A stretch of DNA of 64,000 nucleotides from Terriglobia bacterium. GTDB taxonomy: Bacteria > Acidobacteriota > Terriglobia > Acidiferrales > UBA7541. Shown here piece by piece: positions 49,910 to 63,960 of this stretch (positions within the stretch are counted from its first letter, which is position 1; the number at the start of each line of letters is the position of its first letter). The DNA is taken from positions 558,001 to 622,000 of the forward strand of contig JAIQGG010000002.1 in NCBI GenBank assembly GCA_020072785.1, in the 5' to 3' direction. The notes beneath the pieces are model-generated. The model did no database searches and was not told where the DNA came from. It saw only the letters and a program-made list of their open reading frames with translations. Position numbers and translations under genes: made by a program.

Positions 49910-50824
49910 GTGAAAGCCCGCTCTATGGTGTTTACTCTCTACGGGGATTACATCCGCCACTTTGGGGGCACCATCTGGAGCGGGAGTCTGGTCACCCTCA
50001 TGGGGGAGTTGGGATTTTCCTCCGGTGCGGTTCGAACGGCGCTGTCGAGGACCTGCCAGCAGGGCTGGCTCAAAGCCGTCCGCGACGGCAAGAATAGCTT
50101 CTACAGTCTGACCAAACTTGGGGAAGAGCGCATGGAAGAAGCAGCCCGGCGAATCTTTCATCCGCGCTCGGGCGTTTGGGATGGGCAATGGACCGTCATC
50201 ACCTATGGCCAGCCGGAAACAAAGTCGGCGCAGCGCGGGCGCTTGCGGGGCGAACTGCAGTGGCTGGGATTCGGCCGTTTGATTCCGGGAGTGTGGATAT
50301 CGCCCAATCCGCTCGGGCGGATTGCCCTGAACCACCTTCGCTTACAGGGGATGAAGGCCTCCGTAGAGGTCTTCACCGCCCGGCACATTGGCAATGCCAG
50401 CAGCGAAGAACTGGTGCGGCGATGCTGGGACATTTCGGCGATCAACCGCAGCTACGAACAGTTCATCCGAACCTGGCAGCCGCGCTGGAAGGCCTGCCAG
50501 GGGGAGGTGGCTCGCGGCGCTTCCGTGTCCAATCGGATCTGCTTTGCGGACAAGACCTGGCTGGTGCACGAGTATCGCAAATTTCTGTTCATAGACCCCG
50601 GCTTGCCTGCCGAATTGCTGCCCAAAGCATGGGCCGGAGCTGCTGCCTGGCGCCTGTTCCGGGACTACTACCAACTTCTCGTCGACGGGGCCCTTGGTTT
50701 TTTTGAGCAGGTCTATAAAGCGCCCTCCGAAACCCGCTGGGATGCCACACAGGCACGCCTGCGGGCCCTCCAGAACCCATTTGAAACCTCCTGGGAAAAA
50801 GCAGAAACCGTGTCCGTACGCTGA
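49910..50824 (+). CDS. PaaX-family transcriptional regulator 1
   Basis: A 304-residue protein of the PaaX family: an N-terminal winged helix (ARSMVFTLYGDYIRHFGGTIWSGSLVTLMGELGFSSGAVRTALSRT), a central Cas2-like fold starting WDGQWTVITYG and the C-terminal PaaX domain (ELVRRCWDISAINRSYEQFI). PaaX represses phenylacetate genes and is released by phenylacetyl-CoA. The start is GTG 49910, with GAGG about ten bases upstream. It precedes iorA by 144 bp containing a long inverted repeat. Two paralogues lie at 57087 and 63019. Confidence 0.9.
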   Translation: MKARSMVFTLYGDYIRHFGGTIWSGSLVTLMGELGFSSGAVRTALSRTCQQGWLKAVRDGKNSFYSLTKLGEERMEEAARRIFHPRSGVWDGQWTVITYGQPETKSAQRGRLRGELQWLGFGRLIPGVWISPNPLGRIALNHLRLQGMKASVEVFTARHIGNASSEELVRRCWDISAINRSYEQFIRTWQPRWKACQGEVARGASVSNRICFADKTWLVHEYRKFLFIDPGLPAELLPKAWAGAAAWRLFRDYYQLLVDGALGFFEQVYKAPSETRWDATQARLRALQNPFETSWEKAETVSVR

Positions 50825-57086: not shown

Positions 57087-57974
57087 CTAGGTCAGTTCGA
57101 GCACACGATGCATAACCCTCTCGTGCCCCTTGCGCTTTTCCGCTTCCGTGTGAGGTGGACCTTGAAAATTCTCTTCGAAAAAGGCTAGAGCCCGTTCGGC
57201 CAGCAGGAAGTAACAGTCGCGAAAGACCCGCCAAGCGTCGTTGGCCAGCCAGCCTTCGGGCAGAAGTTCCGAAGGCAGTCCCGGGTCCAGATAGAGGAAT
57301 CTGCCATATTCATAGAGCAGCCGCATTTTGGAAGCGAAACACACATTGTCGGAGGGCGGGTGACCGGCGTTGAAGCGCGATTGGTAAGACCGCCACACGG
57401 GCTTCCACGCTCTGATGAAGTCGCGGTGGCACGCCTGCACGGCGCTCAGATCCCAGCATCTGGCGACCAGATCCGTGCCGGCCTGCGAGTTGACGTGTCG
57501 TGCTCGAAACAGGTTGACGTACTTATCGAGACGCCGCTCCGCGAGATGCTTGAGGGTAAGCTCCACCGCGGGTTTCGGTATGATCCAGCTGGCCGGGGTT
57601 AGCGAACCAAAGCCCAGCCAGATCAATTCCCGCCGCAGCCGCTCGCGATGCTGGCGCAGCTTTTCCGGCAGCGAATAGCTCAGGATTGTCCACTGGCCAT
57701 CCCACTTCTCGGCCCGGGGAGCAAAAATCCGGGGGGCGGCTTCTTCCACCCGGTCCCGGCCCATTTGCGTCAGCGCATAGTAGCTCTTCTTGTCAAACAC
57801 GGAACGCTCCAGCCAATCCTGCTGGGCCAGGCGGCAGAGGGCGGCACGTACGGCCACCGCAGAAAATCCCATCTCTTCGCAGAGCCGCAGCAGGCTCCGC
57901 ACGTGGATGGCGCCGCCGTAATGCTGGACGTAATCGAGATAGATCTCAAAAACAGCCCTGCGCGCCTTCACCAT
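57087..57974 (-). CDS. PaaX-family transcriptional regulator 2
   Basis: A 295-residue PaaX-type regulator. The winged helix starts at VKARRAVFEIYLDYVQHYGGAIHVRSLLRLCEEMGFSAVAVRAAL; the central domain starts WDGQWTILSYSLPE; the C-terminal domain contains LVARCWDLSAVQACHRDFI. AAGGAG lies five bases before ATG 57974. It is clearly closer to regulator 3 (63019) than to regulator 1. It is probably co-transcribed with the crotonase gene and diverges from the U32 protein genes. Confidence 0.9.
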   Translation of the reverse strand: MVKARRAVFEIYLDYVQHYGGAIHVRSLLRLCEEMGFSAVAVRAALCRLAQQDWLERSVFDKKSYYALTQMGRDRVEEAAPRIFAPRAEKWDGQWTILSYSLPEKLRQHRERLRRELIWLGFGSLTPASWIIPKPAVELTLKHLAERRLDKYVNLFRARHVNSQAGTDLVARCWDLSAVQACHRDFIRAWKPVWRSYQSRFNAGHPPSDNVCFASKMRLLYEYGRFLYLDPGLPSELLPEGWLANDAWRVFRDCYFLLAERALAFFEENFQGPPHTEAEKRKGHERVMHRVLELT

Positions 57975-58157: not shown

Positions 58158-59087
58158 ATGGAGTGGGCCATCCACCTCGGCGACGGCAGTCGGGCGAAAG
58201 ATTGGGGCGAACTTTTCCCTGGCCGGCCCCCGCGCTCGTGGGAATCTCCGCTACTGGAGTCTCCAGCAGCTGTTGCCCAATTGCTGGAGCGGGTGGCCGG
58301 CCGAATTTCCCCGCGGCGCGCCTATGTCGGGAACGAATTCTGCCAGAGCTTGATTCCCACGCCGGAGCATCTTTCCCGGATTTGCCGCACTCTCTGGAAG
58401 TCGGGCGTGGACATAACCTTTCTGACCCCTCCGGTCACGGATGAAGGCCTGAATAAATTGCGAATTTTATTTTCCTGGCTGGTCCGGCAGGAACACCCCA
58501 TCGAAGTTGTCTTCAACGACTGGGGCGCGCTGGAGCTGCTGCATCAGGAATTTCAAAAGCTGGACCCCGTTCGCGGCCGCCTCCTGAACAAAATTCTGCG
58601 CGATCCTCGTGTTACTCCTCTGTACAATTCGCCGGCTGCACCTGCGGGGATACGAGCCGCTTTGCAGCCAGGCAGTCTCGATACGCCGTTTCTGCAGCAC
58701 TTGATGAGCCGGTACGGAGTACGAACCGTGGAGTTGGACATCCTGGTGCTCAGCCCGGATGCGGACTTTCGCCACCTGCCCTTTGCAGTGTCTTTCTACT
58801 TTCCTTACGGTTTTGTTACGACAGGGCGGCAATGCATGACGGGTTCGCTCCGCCTGAAGACTGCCGGGCGATTTCAGCCCGGCCTCTCCTGCCAGCGTGA
58901 GTGCCGGCTGTACCTCACGGAACATCGGTTTTCCGGTACCACGCTGGAGACCAATGGAACATTGTTTTTTCAGCGCGGAAACACGTTTTTTTATTGCCCC
59001 CAGCCAGATGTGCTCGAGAATTTCTTGGAACGGGCTGAGAAAAATGGGGTGAGCCGTGTGGTGTATGAACCTGGCTTGCCCATGTGA
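58158..59087 (+). CDS. U32-family Fe-S protein, UbiV-like
   Basis: A 309-residue protein of the peptidase-U32 superfamily. Cysteines are placed as in UbiV: Cys62 in AYVGNEFCQSL (compare the single N-terminal cysteine of UbiV) and Cys226, Cys245 and Cys249 (C-x18-C-x3-C); E. coli UbiV uses Cys39, 180, 193 and 197 for its 4Fe-4S cluster. UbiU/UbiV perform oxygen-independent ring hydroxylation in ubiquinone synthesis. ATG 58158 is chosen because homology begins there; an upstream ATG at 58074 is possible. It lies 4 bp before its probable partner. Confidence 0.7.
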   Translation: MEWAIHLGDGSRAKDWGELFPGRPPRSWESPLLESPAAVAQLLERVAGRISPRRAYVGNEFCQSLIPTPEHLSRICRTLWKSGVDITFLTPPVTDEGLNKLRILFSWLVRQEHPIEVVFNDWGALELLHQEFQKLDPVRGRLLNKILRDPRVTPLYNSPAAPAGIRAALQPGSLDTPFLQHLMSRYGVRTVELDILVLSPDADFRHLPFAVSFYFPYGFVTTGRQCMTGSLRLKTAGRFQPGLSCQRECRLYLTEHRFSGTTLETNGTLFFQRGNTFFYCPQPDVLENFLERAEKNGVSRVVYEPGLPM

Positions 59088-59091
59088 GTGG

Positions 59092-60108
59092 ATGATGAAA
59101 ATCCTGGCGCCTTTGAATTCCCCTGACGAGACGCAGATGCTCCTGGCCAACGGCGCCGAGGAGCTCTATTGCGGACTGGTGCCCGAGGAATGGGTGGCCC
59201 GCAACACCGGTGCCCTCTGGTTGAACCGGCGCAGCCCGGCGGGTGGCAACCTGCGCAGTTTTTCCGATCTCGCGCGAGTGGTTGAAGAGGCCCATGCGTG
59301 GTCCGTTCCCGTCTTCGTGACTCTGAACGCGCAGGGCTACACGGCGGGACAATTGCCCCAGGTCCTGGAGCTGGCCCGCCGTTATGTCGAAGAAGCCCGC
59401 GTCGATGCTTTGATCGTGTCCGATCCGGCACTAATCGTGGCCTTGGCAGAAGAGAGCCTGGCCTGTGCCCTGCATCTCAGCTCTATTGCTGCGTCCTTGA
59501 ATGTGGGAGCCATCCGCTTCTTCCGCTCCTTGGGTATCCGCCGTGTCATTCTGCCGCGTTCTGTGACCTTGGGGGAAATCAGGCAAATGTCCTCCAGTGT
59601 CGGTCCGGAAGTTGAGCTCGAAGCATTTATTCTGAACGATGGATGCATTTTCGAGGAAGGGAACTGCCTCACCACGCATCATCACTCCGTCGGCGCATTC
59701 TGCACCGGCCTGGCCCGGATGGATTCTCGGCCGGTAAAGATTTCCGGAGCCCCCTGGCTTCCCGGGGAGAAGGAAATCGTCGACGCGCTCCTCGAAGAGT
59801 TTCATCAGCAAATCCATATGCTTACCAATGCCGATGCCACCCAGGCAGCAGGACTCCCCGGGCCCTGCGGGCTATGTGCGATTCCCTTCTTTCAGCGTGC
59901 CGGTATCTCCTCTCTCAAGATTGTCGGACGCGAAGCCTCCGCCTTGCGAAAGTTGATGAGCCTGAAACTGGTGCGGGCCGTTGTAGATAAGGTGCGGCGC
60001 GGGATTCCCGAAGCGGCCGTGCAGCAATATGCGCAGGCCCTTCGCGGCGGAGCGTCAGCGTGCGTCCCAGGCAAAATGTGCTATTACGACCTTGGAGAAA
60101 CTGCATGA
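59092..60108 (+). CDS. U32-family Fe-S protein, UbiU-like
   Basis: A 338-residue U32-superfamily protein. The N-terminal strand LAPLNSPDETQMLLANGAEELYCGL is typical. The cluster-binding cysteines are Cys185 and Cys192 (C-x6-C, the spacing in UbiU), then Cys204 and Cys259 in LPGPCGLC. ATG 59092 or 59095 starts just after the upstream gene's stop. With the UbiV-like protein it probably forms a heterodimer. The pathway is unknown; Acidobacteriota generally use menaquinone, so ubiquinone synthesis is not expected. The stop overlaps the next start. Confidence 0.78.
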   Translation: MMKILAPLNSPDETQMLLANGAEELYCGLVPEEWVARNTGALWLNRRSPAGGNLRSFSDLARVVEEAHAWSVPVFVTLNAQGYTAGQLPQVLELARRYVEEARVDALIVSDPALIVALAEESLACALHLSSIAASLNVGAIRFFRSLGIRRVILPRSVTLGEIRQMSSSVGPEVELEAFILNDGCIFEEGNCLTTHHHSVGAFCTGLARMDSRPVKISGAPWLPGEKEIVDALLEEFHQQIHMLTNADATQAAGLPGPCGLCAIPFFQRAGISSLKIVGREASALRKLMSLKLVRAVVDKVRRGIPEAAVQQYAQALRGGASACVPGKMCYYDLGETA

Positions 60109-61190
60109 AAAGGGGAACTGGAGACTATTCAACGGTGTTTGCCTTGCTGGCGGTGATGCTCACGTTCTTCTTCGTCTCCGCGGGGACGCCGGCGCAAGCG
60201 CAAGGACCGGAGTTGTACGCGGTCGCCATGCATCCTCGCTCCCTGCTCCTGTTCGACGGCAGCCGCGATGAAATTATCGGGGAGATCCAGACTCGCGGGC
60301 GCAATCCGAGAGAGGTTGTCCCGTCCCCGGATGGCAGGTTTGTGTATACGACCACAGAAGGGCGATCCCAGTTGGAGGTGATCGATCTGCAGACTCGCAA
60401 AGTGGAGCGGGTTTTCAACCTCGCGCCTCCAGGTTACCGGCTGACGATTTATGGAGTAGCGATCAACAGCAAGGGAGACCGGTTGTACCTGCACGTCAAA
60501 CTGGTGCGCGAACTGGTGGACGAGTACAAAGTGGATCCTCCCCAGATCTGGTCGCTGGACGTGCATACGGGAAAGAGCGAGAAAATCGTGGAAGTGCCGC
60601 AGGGCGTGGCCGCGCTGGTCATGACAAGAGACGGACGGCGCCTCATCGCGTGGGGGCGCGATCTCTATTACATTGATCTGGCCCAGGGCCGCATCATGGA
60701 AACAGTTCCTTTGTTCAACCGCAATCTGCCCGGCCAGGGACCGCTCGACACCCTGCCGCTGTTCATTGAATATGCGCGCAGCGGCGTCCTGAGCTGCCCG
60801 TATTACACGACGGATCCGATTCTCAAGAAGACTCTTTTTGGTTTGGCAAACCTCGATCTGAACACCGGCAAGTTGGATCTGGTAGAACTGGGCCCGGCCA
60901 TCCCGCTCTATTCGAGCGTGGTGTCTGGGGACCGCCAGCGGGCCTACGGGGTGATGAACCAGTTGGTGGCGGTGGACTTGCCTGCAGGAAGAGTCCTGAA
61001 TGTGCAGGATCTGGAGCGCACCCAGTACATCACCAATATCAGCCGGGACGGCAAGAAACTCTATGTTTCCGGTGCATCCTATTTCATCCATGTCTACGAT
61101 ACCGGGACATTGAAGTTGATCAAGACAATTAAACTGTCCGGTGATGCCAGCATCGCTTTCAGCGCCATACCAGCGGCCGCGGTGCATTGA
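60105..61190 (+). CDS. Secreted beta-propeller protein resembling quinohemoprotein amine dehydrogenase beta subunit / YncE
   Basis: A 361-residue protein with a signal peptide (FALLAVMLTFFFVSAGTPAQA). Repeated seven-bladed-propeller strands follow: VVPSPDGRFVYTTTEG, VAINSKGDRLYLHVK, VMTRDGRRLIAWGRD, VVSGDRQRAYGVMN, ISRDGKKLYVSG. The order and loop VRELVDEYKVDPPQIWSLD resemble QhpB. No QhpA, QhpC or QhpD gene is in the window. ATG overlaps the UbiU-like stop by four bases, so it is co-translated. It might bind a periplasmic redox partner. Confidence 0.7.
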   Translation: MKRGTGDYSTVFALLAVMLTFFFVSAGTPAQAQGPELYAVAMHPRSLLLFDGSRDEIIGEIQTRGRNPREVVPSPDGRFVYTTTEGRSQLEVIDLQTRKVERVFNLAPPGYRLTIYGVAINSKGDRLYLHVKLVRELVDEYKVDPPQIWSLDVHTGKSEKIVEVPQGVAALVMTRDGRRLIAWGRDLYYIDLAQGRIMETVPLFNRNLPGQGPLDTLPLFIEYARSGVLSCPYYTTDPILKKTLFGLANLDLNTGKLDLVELGPAIPLYSSVVSGDRQRAYGVMNQLVAVDLPAGRVLNVQDLERTQYITNISRDGKKLYVSGASYFIHVYDTGTLKLIKTIKLSGDASIAFSAIPAAAVH

Positions 61191-61265
61191 TGCGCGGCGT
61201 TTTCATCCTGGAAAGAAAGCCGCGGGGGAAAGAAGTAATAAATCTGCGTGCGGGATGAGCCAATT

Positions 61266-62990
61266 ATGACGGTGGGAAACTCAACCAATAATCGTTTGAG
61301 CTATTGTCACGGAACGGGGCCGCTTCCCCTCCTGGGGCTTTGTGTGGGGCAGGTGCTGGACGATACGGTCCAAGCGCACCCGGACAATCCGGCGCTCATC
61401 GCCCGGCACCAGAACAAGCGCTTTACCTACCGGGAACTCCTGCGCGAGGTTGAACAGGCAGCAAGAGGACTATTGCGGCTGGGAGTACAGAAGGGTGATC
61501 GGATTGGAATCTGGTCCACCAACTGTGCGGAATGGGTGGTGGCACAGTTTGCCGCGGCCAAGATTGGGGCGATCCTGGTCAGCATCAATCCCGCCAATCG
61601 TGCATTCGAACTGGAACATGTCTTGAGGCACTCCGAATGCCAGACACTCGTGCTGGCCCGGAGTTTTCGCGATTGCGACTACCTGGAGACGTTGTGGCGT
61701 CTCTGTCCGGAATTGGTTCGCAGCCGGCCCGGTGGCTTGCAGTCCGCCAGGCTGCCCAGCCTGAAGAATCTGATCCTGATCGGAGAGGGGCCAGTCCCGA
61801 ACTGCATGTATCGTTGGGAAGAACTGTCCGATATGGGGAAAGCTTTACCCGCCGGAGAGCTGCAGGAACGCGAAGCATCCTTGGAGTTCGACGATCCCAT
61901 CAGCCTCCAGTACACCTCAGGCACTACCGGCATGCCCAAAGGGACCATGCTCACCCACCATAATATGGTCAACAATGCTTTTTTTGCCGGTGCCAGCATG
62001 AACTTGACACACCGTGACCGGCTCTGCATTCCGGTCCCTTTCTACCATTGTTTCGGCATGGTCCTGAGCAACCTGCTGTGCGTGTTGTCCGGAGCGACGA
62101 TGGTTCTTCCCGCCGCGCATTTCGACGCTTTGGAAACTCTGCGGGCAATAGCCGAGGAACGCTGCACGGCAGTGCATGGTGTGCCGACCATGTTTATCGC
62201 GCAACTGGAGCACCCCGAGTTCAGCCGCTTCGATCTGAGCATGCTGCGCACTGGAATTGTCGGCGCTTCCCCCTGTCCGATCGAGGTGATGAAGCGCGTG
62301 GTGCAGTCCATGCACTTGCGGGACTTAACGATTGCCTACGGCCTCACCGAGGCTTCTCCCCTGATCACACAAACCAGCACCGGCGTTTCCGTGGAACTCC
62401 TGGTTACGACTGTGGGCCAGGCGCTGCCGCACACCGAAGTGAAGATTATTGATGTAGGGACAGGGATGACTGTCCCGGTTGGCGTGCAGGGAGAGCTGTG
62501 TGTTCGCGGATACATGGTGATGAAAGGCTATTACAAGAACGCCGAGGCCACCCGGCTGGCGATTGACGAAGACGGCTGGCTGCATACGGGAGACCTCGCC
62601 ACGCTGGGCGATGACGGATATTTCAGGATCACCGGACGAGCCAAGGACGTCATCATCCGGGGCGGGGAAAATATTTATCCGGGGGAAATCGAGGAGTTCT
62701 TGTACACATGTCCCGGCGTCAGCAACGCGCAGGTGATCGGCGTGCCGGACGCGAAGTATGGAGAGCGCATCGTCGCATGGGTAAAACTGGAACCCGAGGC
62801 CAAGTTGACCGCGGAAGAGATCATGAAGTTCTGCGAAGGCAAAATCGCCGCGTACAAGGTTCCCAAGTTCGTCAAGATTGTTGATTCTTTCCCGATGACC
62901 CTGAGCGGGAAAATCCAGAAGTTCAAGATGCGCGAAATGACCATCCAGGAACTACAGTTGAAGGGAACGGCTAATACGGGGAGTTCCTGA
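61266..62990 (+). CDS. AMP-forming acyl-CoA ligase (fatty acid/aryl-CoA type)
   Basis: A 574-residue ANL enzyme: YTSGTTGMPKGTML near residue 217, YGLTEASPL near 360, GWLHTGDLATLGDDGYFRITGRAKDVIIRGGENIYPGEIEEF near 437-480 and catalytic lysine in LSGKIQKFK near the end. It is more like FadD-type medium-chain or aryl-CoA ligases than the ligase at 7430. ATG 61266 is favoured. It follows the propeller gene by 75 bp and precedes a convergent PaaX gene, so its acyl-CoA product could be the PaaX ligand. Confidence 0.9.
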   Translation: MTVGNSTNNRLSYCHGTGPLPLLGLCVGQVLDDTVQAHPDNPALIARHQNKRFTYRELLREVEQAARGLLRLGVQKGDRIGIWSTNCAEWVVAQFAAAKIGAILVSINPANRAFELEHVLRHSECQTLVLARSFRDCDYLETLWRLCPELVRSRPGGLQSARLPSLKNLILIGEGPVPNCMYRWEELSDMGKALPAGELQEREASLEFDDPISLQYTSGTTGMPKGTMLTHHNMVNNAFFAGASMNLTHRDRLCIPVPFYHCFGMVLSNLLCVLSGATMVLPAAHFDALETLRAIAEERCTAVHGVPTMFIAQLEHPEFSRFDLSMLRTGIVGASPCPIEVMKRVVQSMHLRDLTIAYGLTEASPLITQTSTGVSVELLVTTVGQALPHTEVKIIDVGTGMTVPVGVQGELCVRGYMVMKGYYKNAEATRLAIDEDGWLHTGDLATLGDDGYFRITGRAKDVIIRGGENIYPGEIEEFLYTCPGVSNAQVIGVPDAKYGERIVAWVKLEPEAKLTAEEIMKFCEGKIAAYKVPKFVKIVDSFPMTLSGKIQKFKMREMTIQELQLKGTANTGSS

Positions 62991-63018: not shown

Positions 63019-63960
63019 CTATACCGCCTCGTAAAATCCTTGTAGCACCCTTTGGCGCCCCTCTTGCTGCTCTTTCTGAGTATGAGACGGCCCCACAAAG
63101 ATGTGTTCGAAATAGTGCAACGCCCGCTCGGCGAGCAAAAGATAACAATCACGGAAGATGTGCCAGGCTTCATCGCCTAACCAGCCTTCGGGCAGGAGTT
63201 CGGAGGGGAGCTCGGGATCGTTGTGCAGAAACTCGCCGAACTGGTGCAGCAGATGGATTCGGGTGGCGAAGCAGACGTTCTCTGGCGGGGGCTGGCCGCG
63301 GCGGAATTTAGCCGCGTAATCCTGCCTGCGAGGTTCCCAAGCATTAATGAAGTGACGGTACTGAGTCTGTATGGCGTCCAGATCCCAGCACCTTCTAACC
63401 AACGCGGTATTTGTCAGGCCGCTCACTTGGTGGCCGCGGAAGATCTGTACGTGTGCATCCAGCTTGCGGATGGCCAGGTGCCGCAAGGTGACCTCGACGA
63501 CAGCTTTTGGACTGATCCAGGTGGCCGAGTTTAGAGGACCGAAGCCCAGCCAGTTCAATTCATGGCGAAGGCGGTCCCGGTGATGGCGCAGCCTCTCCGG
63601 CAGGGAGTAGGTCAGAATCGTCCACTGCCCGTCCCACCGGCTGCTGTGATGAGCAAAGATTCTGGGACGCGCCTCCTCGAGTCGCTCACGCCCCATTCTT
63701 GTCAGTGCGTAGTAACTGCGGTTGTTTTCGACGCTCCGTTCGAACCAACCTTGGGAAGTCATTCGGCACAGTGCGCTGCGAATCGTACTTACGGGCAGGC
63801 CCAGCTCGGAGGTCAGCTGGAGCAAGCTGGCGATGTAGATGGAGCCGCCGTAATGTTGCACGTAGTCGAAATAGACTTCGAAAATAGCCCGGTGTGCTTT
63901 GTATGATGTCACGGACGAGGTCGTGTTCATTACGCAATGCACGCTACGAGAAAAGCGCAC
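63019..63960 (-). CDS. PaaX-family transcriptional regulator 3
   Basis: A 313-residue PaaX-type regulator: winged helix SYKAHRAIFEVYFDYVQHYGGSIYIASLLQLTSELGLPVSTIRSALCR, central WDGQWTILTYSLPERLRHHRDRL, and LVRRCWDLDAIQTQYRHFI. It is closely similar to regulator 2. The start is uncertain: GTG 63960 has GGGAGG about 11 bases upstream, while ATG 63930 is nearer to the conserved domain but has no ribosome site. Confidence 0.88.
   Translation of the reverse strand: MRFSRSVHCVMNTTSSVTSYKAHRAIFEVYFDYVQHYGGSIYIASLLQLTSELGLPVSTIRSALCRMTSQGWFERSVENNRSYYALTRMGRERLEEARPRIFAHHSSRWDGQWTILTYSLPERLRHHRDRLRHELNWLGFGPLNSATWISPKAVVEVTLRHLAIRKLDAHVQIFRGHQVSGLTNTALVRRCWDLDAIQTQYRHFINAWEPRRQDYAAKFRRGQPPPENVCFATRIHLLHQFGEFLHNDPELPSELLPEGWLGDEAWHIFRDCYLLLAERALHYFEHIFVGPSHTQKEQQEGRQRVLQGFYEAV

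Follow-up and report, generated by a model that had tools for sequence, protein, structure and literature searches.

The window is a 64,000-nucleotide stretch of a 3.7-Mb genome and covers contig positions 558001-622000. Near its end are three co-directional genes, here called V, U and B1, that translate cleanly at the coordinates in Table 1. V and U are separated by 4 bp, and the start of B1 overlaps the stop of U in an ATGA. B1 begins with a stretch that resembles a signal peptide. It is homologous to QhpB, the beta subunit of quinohemoprotein amine dehydrogenase (QHNDH), over nearly its full length, and its best PDB match is the beta subunit structure 1jju_B (E 4e-32). It differs from QhpB in being a second copy that sits in the V-U operon, and its score against TIGR03907 (E 1.5e-48, 165.7 bits) is below the curated cut-off of 223.2, which leaves it outside the equivalog. 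The original prediction coupled a U32 pair to a QhpB-like propeller, and both the overlap and the homology of B1 bear this out.

Table 1. Coordinates of the V-U-B unit, its neighbours and the related genes discussed in the text
Feature	Sequence	Position	Strand	Basis
PaaX-type regulator	window	49910..50824		
PaaX-type regulator, divergent from V-U-B	window	57087..57974	-	PaaX domains; same place in L019
V: UbiV-like U32-type protein, proposed QhpV	window	58158..59087	+	309 aa ORF
U: UbiU-like U32 protein, proposed QhpU	window	59092..60108	+	338 aa; PF01136
B1: QhpB-like secreted beta-propeller, QHNDH beta subunit paralog	window	60105..61190	+	TIGR03907, 1jju_B
Acyl-CoA synthetase, downstream of unit	window	61248..62990	+	AMP-binding PF00501; order kept in sister genome L019
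PaaX-type regulator adjoining unit	window	63019..63960	-	PF07848, PF20803, PF08223
QhpD	contig	627503-628954		above its cut-off
QhpB2, in main qhp cluster	L012	11188-12411		
QhpG-like protein	L124	4060-5076		middle of QhpG profile
QhpG-like protein	L125	14175-15203		middle of QhpG profile
QhpG-like protein	L126	14224-15228		middle of QhpG profile

Three PaaX-type regulators lie within 14 kb around the unit, and indolepyruvate and 2-oxoacid ferredoxin oxidoreductases are interleaved with them. This arrangement is largely kept in the sister genome L019 and partly in L022, which also has the PaaX-type gene upstream of V-U-B. The genes around the unit, which encode CoA ligases and PaaX regulators as well as these ferredoxin oxidoreductases, hint at the breakdown of an aromatic amine or an amino acid at low oxygen.

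A U32 profile search of the genome picks out U alone, and U is a clear member of PF01136 (E 2e-35, 122.7 bits with a cut-off of 22.4). Its best PDB match in a fold search is the U32 structure 5D88. Comparison with UbiU by hhalign gives a probability of 99.9%, and Cys185-x6-Cys192 and Cys204 of U align to UbiU C169/C176/C193. There are four more invariant cysteines in U, at 259, 262, 324 and 330. Judging from the sequence, the fourth ligand of a UbiU-type cluster is probably C259 or C262. The extra cysteines, three or more beyond the UbiU set, may hold another Fe-S cluster. Seven cysteines of U are invariant in 40 homologs, and an eighth, C27, is present in 36 of these.

Searches of V against Pfam (PF01136 included) and NCBIfam give no match, and BLAST against E. 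coli UbiV gives nothing significant. When profiles are compared it matches UbiV (hhalign probability 93%, E 3e-7) and gives no alignment with UbiU. The structure model of V is alpha/beta and confident (pLDDT 87); a fold search returns weak TIM-barrel matches and nothing stronger. V has Cys62 followed by Cys226-x18-Cys245-x3-Cys249, and all four are in register with UbiV C39/C180/C193/C197 in the profile alignment. They are invariant in 7 homologs and also in a set of 40, where Cys62 is kept in 39 of the 39 that align. C62, C226, C245 and C249 are therefore the predicted ligands of a [4Fe-4S] cluster. The UbiV layout claimed for V thus holds at all four positions, and the UbiU layout claimed for U holds at three and probably at the fourth.

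U is 24% identical to TrhP, about as much as to UbiU, and it shares the U32 domain and a similar cysteine pattern with both TrhP and RlhA, so the pair could conceivably modify RNA as those enzymes do. We consider this exceedingly improbable. TrhP and RlhA are single proteins that act on RNA. In the U tree the pair forms a clade of 49 rows (SH-aLRT 95) that lies apart from UbiU, TrhP and RlhA of E. coli, and the split from these references has a support of 100, though with long branches. The original prediction named this phylogeny as a check, and U is not on the branch of the RNA-modifying enzymes; it does not group with UbiU either. The pair also co-occurs with QhpD, as discussed below, and is otherwise rare.

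One could also argue that the pair hydroxylates ubiquinone or another respiratory quinone and lies near qhp by chance, since its sequences and cysteines are of the UbiU/UbiV type. UbiU-UbiV of E. coli are likewise encoded by two adjacent U32 genes, with U resembling UbiU, V resembling UbiV and the cluster cysteines in the same places (PMC6747719). However, the identity in profile alignments is about 25% for U and about 22% for V, and U is on a separate, long and fully supported branch. It scores 84.6 bits against the UbiU equivalog, which has a cut-off of 440. The pair here is linked to qhp and not to ubiT, its order is V-U and not U-V, and U has extra invariant cysteines. The bacteria that carry it include Bacillota, Acidobacteriota and sulfate reducers, which use menaquinone. 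A role in respiratory quinone synthesis is highly improbable on these grounds.

The original prediction placed the pair outside quinone synthesis altogether. That is right as far as ubiquinone is concerned, but it overlooks a full qhp cluster just past the window, which serves QHNDH and its tryptophan-derived cofactor cysteine tryptophylquinone (CTQ). The genes qhpA-D-C-B-F-E are on the same contig, 3.7-11 kb beyond the window end, and about 6.5 kb separate the end of the V-U-B unit from qhpA. The complete run consists of a TonB-type receptor, QhpA, QhpD, QhpC, a second QhpB, QhpF, QhpE, two acyl-CoA synthetases and QhpG (288 bits). QhpA has four QHNDH alpha domains and two CxxCH motifs, QhpE is a subtilase and QhpF is an ABC exporter. 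QhpC keeps the CTQ residues Cys37 and Trp43 as well as all three thioether crosslink pairs. With QhpA, B, C, D, E and F in one locus, this genome has the qhp gene set.

A V-profile scan of GTDB genomes gave 80 loci. Of the 49 rows of the supported U clade, 30 have qhp genes at the pair's locus, either around the pair or next to it. The order up to the acyl-CoA synthetase is the same in L019. Linked pairs occur in Acidobacteriota, Bacillota, sulfate reducers and Pseudomonadota; qhp genes adjoin V-U in Brevibacillus, Aneurinibacillus, Neobacillus, Desulforhabdus, Desulfobacterales, Thauera and Sedimenticola. G259 and G289, both Acidobacteriota, have the pair within the operon, in the order A-D-C-B-V-U-(F)-E.

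This distribution bears on the pathway that was first proposed, in which the pair hydroxylates a small molecule of nearby catabolism. That proposal is in keeping with the genes near the pair, namely those for PaaX regulators, acyl-CoA ligases and the indolepyruvate and 2-oxoacid ferredoxin oxidoreductases, all of them kept in sister genomes. Beyond close relatives the catabolic neighbours vary but the qhp genes stay, which makes a catabolic substrate very unlikely. Hydroxylation independent of O2 survives from the first proposal by homology and synteny; the pair probably acts on the quinone cofactor of a protein and not on a catabolite.

Co-occurrence was examined in 297 Acidobacteriota genomes and in 151 genomes of Thauera's family, the latter sampled at family level because class-level sampling is too sparse. 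V is in 7 of the Acidobacteriota and QhpD is in 20, and all 7 V genomes have QhpD. In Thauera's family the corresponding numbers are 14 and 21, and again every V genome (14/14) has QhpD. The hypergeometric probabilities are 2e-9 and 6e-15, respectively, computed as if genomes were independent although both sets are samples of relatives and some MAGs are incomplete. Two genomes (G637 and G321) have two QhpD and two V each, and every V is within 12 kb of one QhpD on the same contig. G572 has two QhpD and no V. Synteny and co-occurrence together tie the pair to QHNDH maturation, and we regard its involvement there as very likely.

The next argument comes from QhpG, a FAD monooxygenase that dihydroxylates the QhpC tryptophan with both oxygens coming from O2 (PMC7876137). 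All 41 QhpD genomes have either qhpG (or a qhpG-like gene) or the V-U pair, and none is without both. QhpG or a QhpG-like gene is present in 20/20 of the QhpD genomes that lack V. Among the 21 that have V, 9 also have QhpG (five sampled Acidobacteriota and four from Thauera's family) and 12 are without it, a call that depends on the profile used and on MAG completeness. The complementarity gives a Fisher probability of 5e-5 with relatedness ignored. G259 is counted as having no QhpG, its best match to the profile being a GoxB/LodB-type protein. Gains or losses of QhpG number at least 7 on the QhpD tree, and tree-based independent pairs average 2.2 in the same direction and 0 in the opposite one, too few for significance. 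Strict mutual exclusion of the pair and QhpG is rejected, since our genome and several others carry both.

The QhpG match is weak and short in three of the 20 V-less genomes (G187, G225 and G241), where it lies beside qhp. The QhpG-like proteins in Table 1, of 334-342 aa and also beside qhp, match the middle of the profile only and represent a divergent form of QhpG.

The operon position agrees with the complementarity. In several pair-only clusters of Thauera's family V-U comes directly after qhpE, and in V-less clusters of the same family it is qhpG that follows qhpE, directly or 2-3 kb on. QhpC from pair-only genomes or loci keeps the CTQ Cys and Trp in 24 of 25 cases, the remaining one being gapped, so CTQ is presumably still made there. 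It must be said that aerobic or facultative Bacillota are pair-only too, so strict anaerobiosis cannot be the explanation everywhere.

In many pair genomes the sole maturation step otherwise without an enzyme is the dihydroxylation of the CTQ tryptophan, and we therefore assign the pair to it. We argue that V-U is quite probably a dedicated O2-independent hydroxylase for QHNDH maturation, hence QhpU and QhpV, that replaces QhpG or backs it up. We infer the hydroxylation of Trp from co-occurrence and from complementarity with QhpG. The two systems would have the same substrate and product and can occupy the same operon place, but QhpG is an unrelated protein that needs O2 and reduced FAD, whereas the predicted chemistry of the pair relies on Fe-S clusters and dispenses with O2.

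Another possibility is that the pair acts in QHNDH maturation at a different step, by hydroxylating other residues, by passing electrons to QhpD or QhpG or by completing the Cys-Trp bond. This would produce the same co-occurrence with QhpD and would suit the nine genomes that keep both QhpG and the pair. We consider it unlikely, because D, E and F cover the known steps and only G is missing in 12 of the 21 pair genomes. The known chemistry of U32 oxidases is also hydroxylation (PMC11574389). These enzymes need no O2 to hydroxylate a ring; they use Fe-S clusters, and their donor is apparently prephenate (PMC11574389; PMC6747719).

In the scheme that we favour, maturation would begin in the cytoplasm, where QhpD crosslinks the gamma subunit QhpC by three Cys-Asp/Glu thioethers. 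V and U, as a heterodimer carrying [4Fe-4S] clusters, would then dihydroxylate the CTQ tryptophan (the equivalent of Trp43). The oxygen donor would probably be organic, for example prephenate, which has been proposed for other U32 hydroxylases. After QhpE had clipped the leader, QhpF would export QhpC to the periplasm, where it would assemble with QhpA and QhpB. In our genome the pair would be a second route beside qhpG, and in other genomes it would be the only one.

CTQ formation is known only with O2 through QhpG, yet a title cited in PMC11231019 reports two QHNDHs in anaerobic use in Aromatoleum aromaticum, and qhp genes are present in sulfate reducers. If our assignment is true, the U32 pair answers how CTQ can form without oxygen. 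V-U is likely a U32 oxidase that hydroxylates a protein side chain, which would make it the first O2-independent peptidyl-tryptophan dihydroxylase, making CTQ in anaerobes and working alongside QhpG in facultative bacteria. U32 chemistry would then include proteins as well as quinones and RNA, and a soluble, genetically defined protein substrate would be at hand for studies of the U32 mechanism, which is poorly understood. A literature search, with bioRxiv and most subscription papers outside its coverage, returned no paper linking U32 proteins to QHNDH.

The 19 clade rows without local qhp are of more than one kind. Several have a qhp cluster elsewhere in the genome. Eight from the Desulfosporosinus group and two from the Myxococcota are without QhpC, which means that in these groups the wider family is used for something else. 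The stand-alone pairs of Desulfosporosinus-type Bacillota (L034, L035, L039, L040, L041, L045, L048 and L049) have no QhpC or other qhp genes. A QhpD-like radical SAM match of about 240 bits in such genomes was considered as a qhp link and rejected, since qhp genes and QhpC are absent; we take this protein to be possibly a SCIFF-type maturase. In L020 and L024 the order is qhpA-C-B-V-U; qhpD is missing between A and C in the 20 kb that the locus spans. In our own genome the two QhpB paralogs, B1 in the V-U operon and QhpB2 in the main qhp cluster, are 57% identical.
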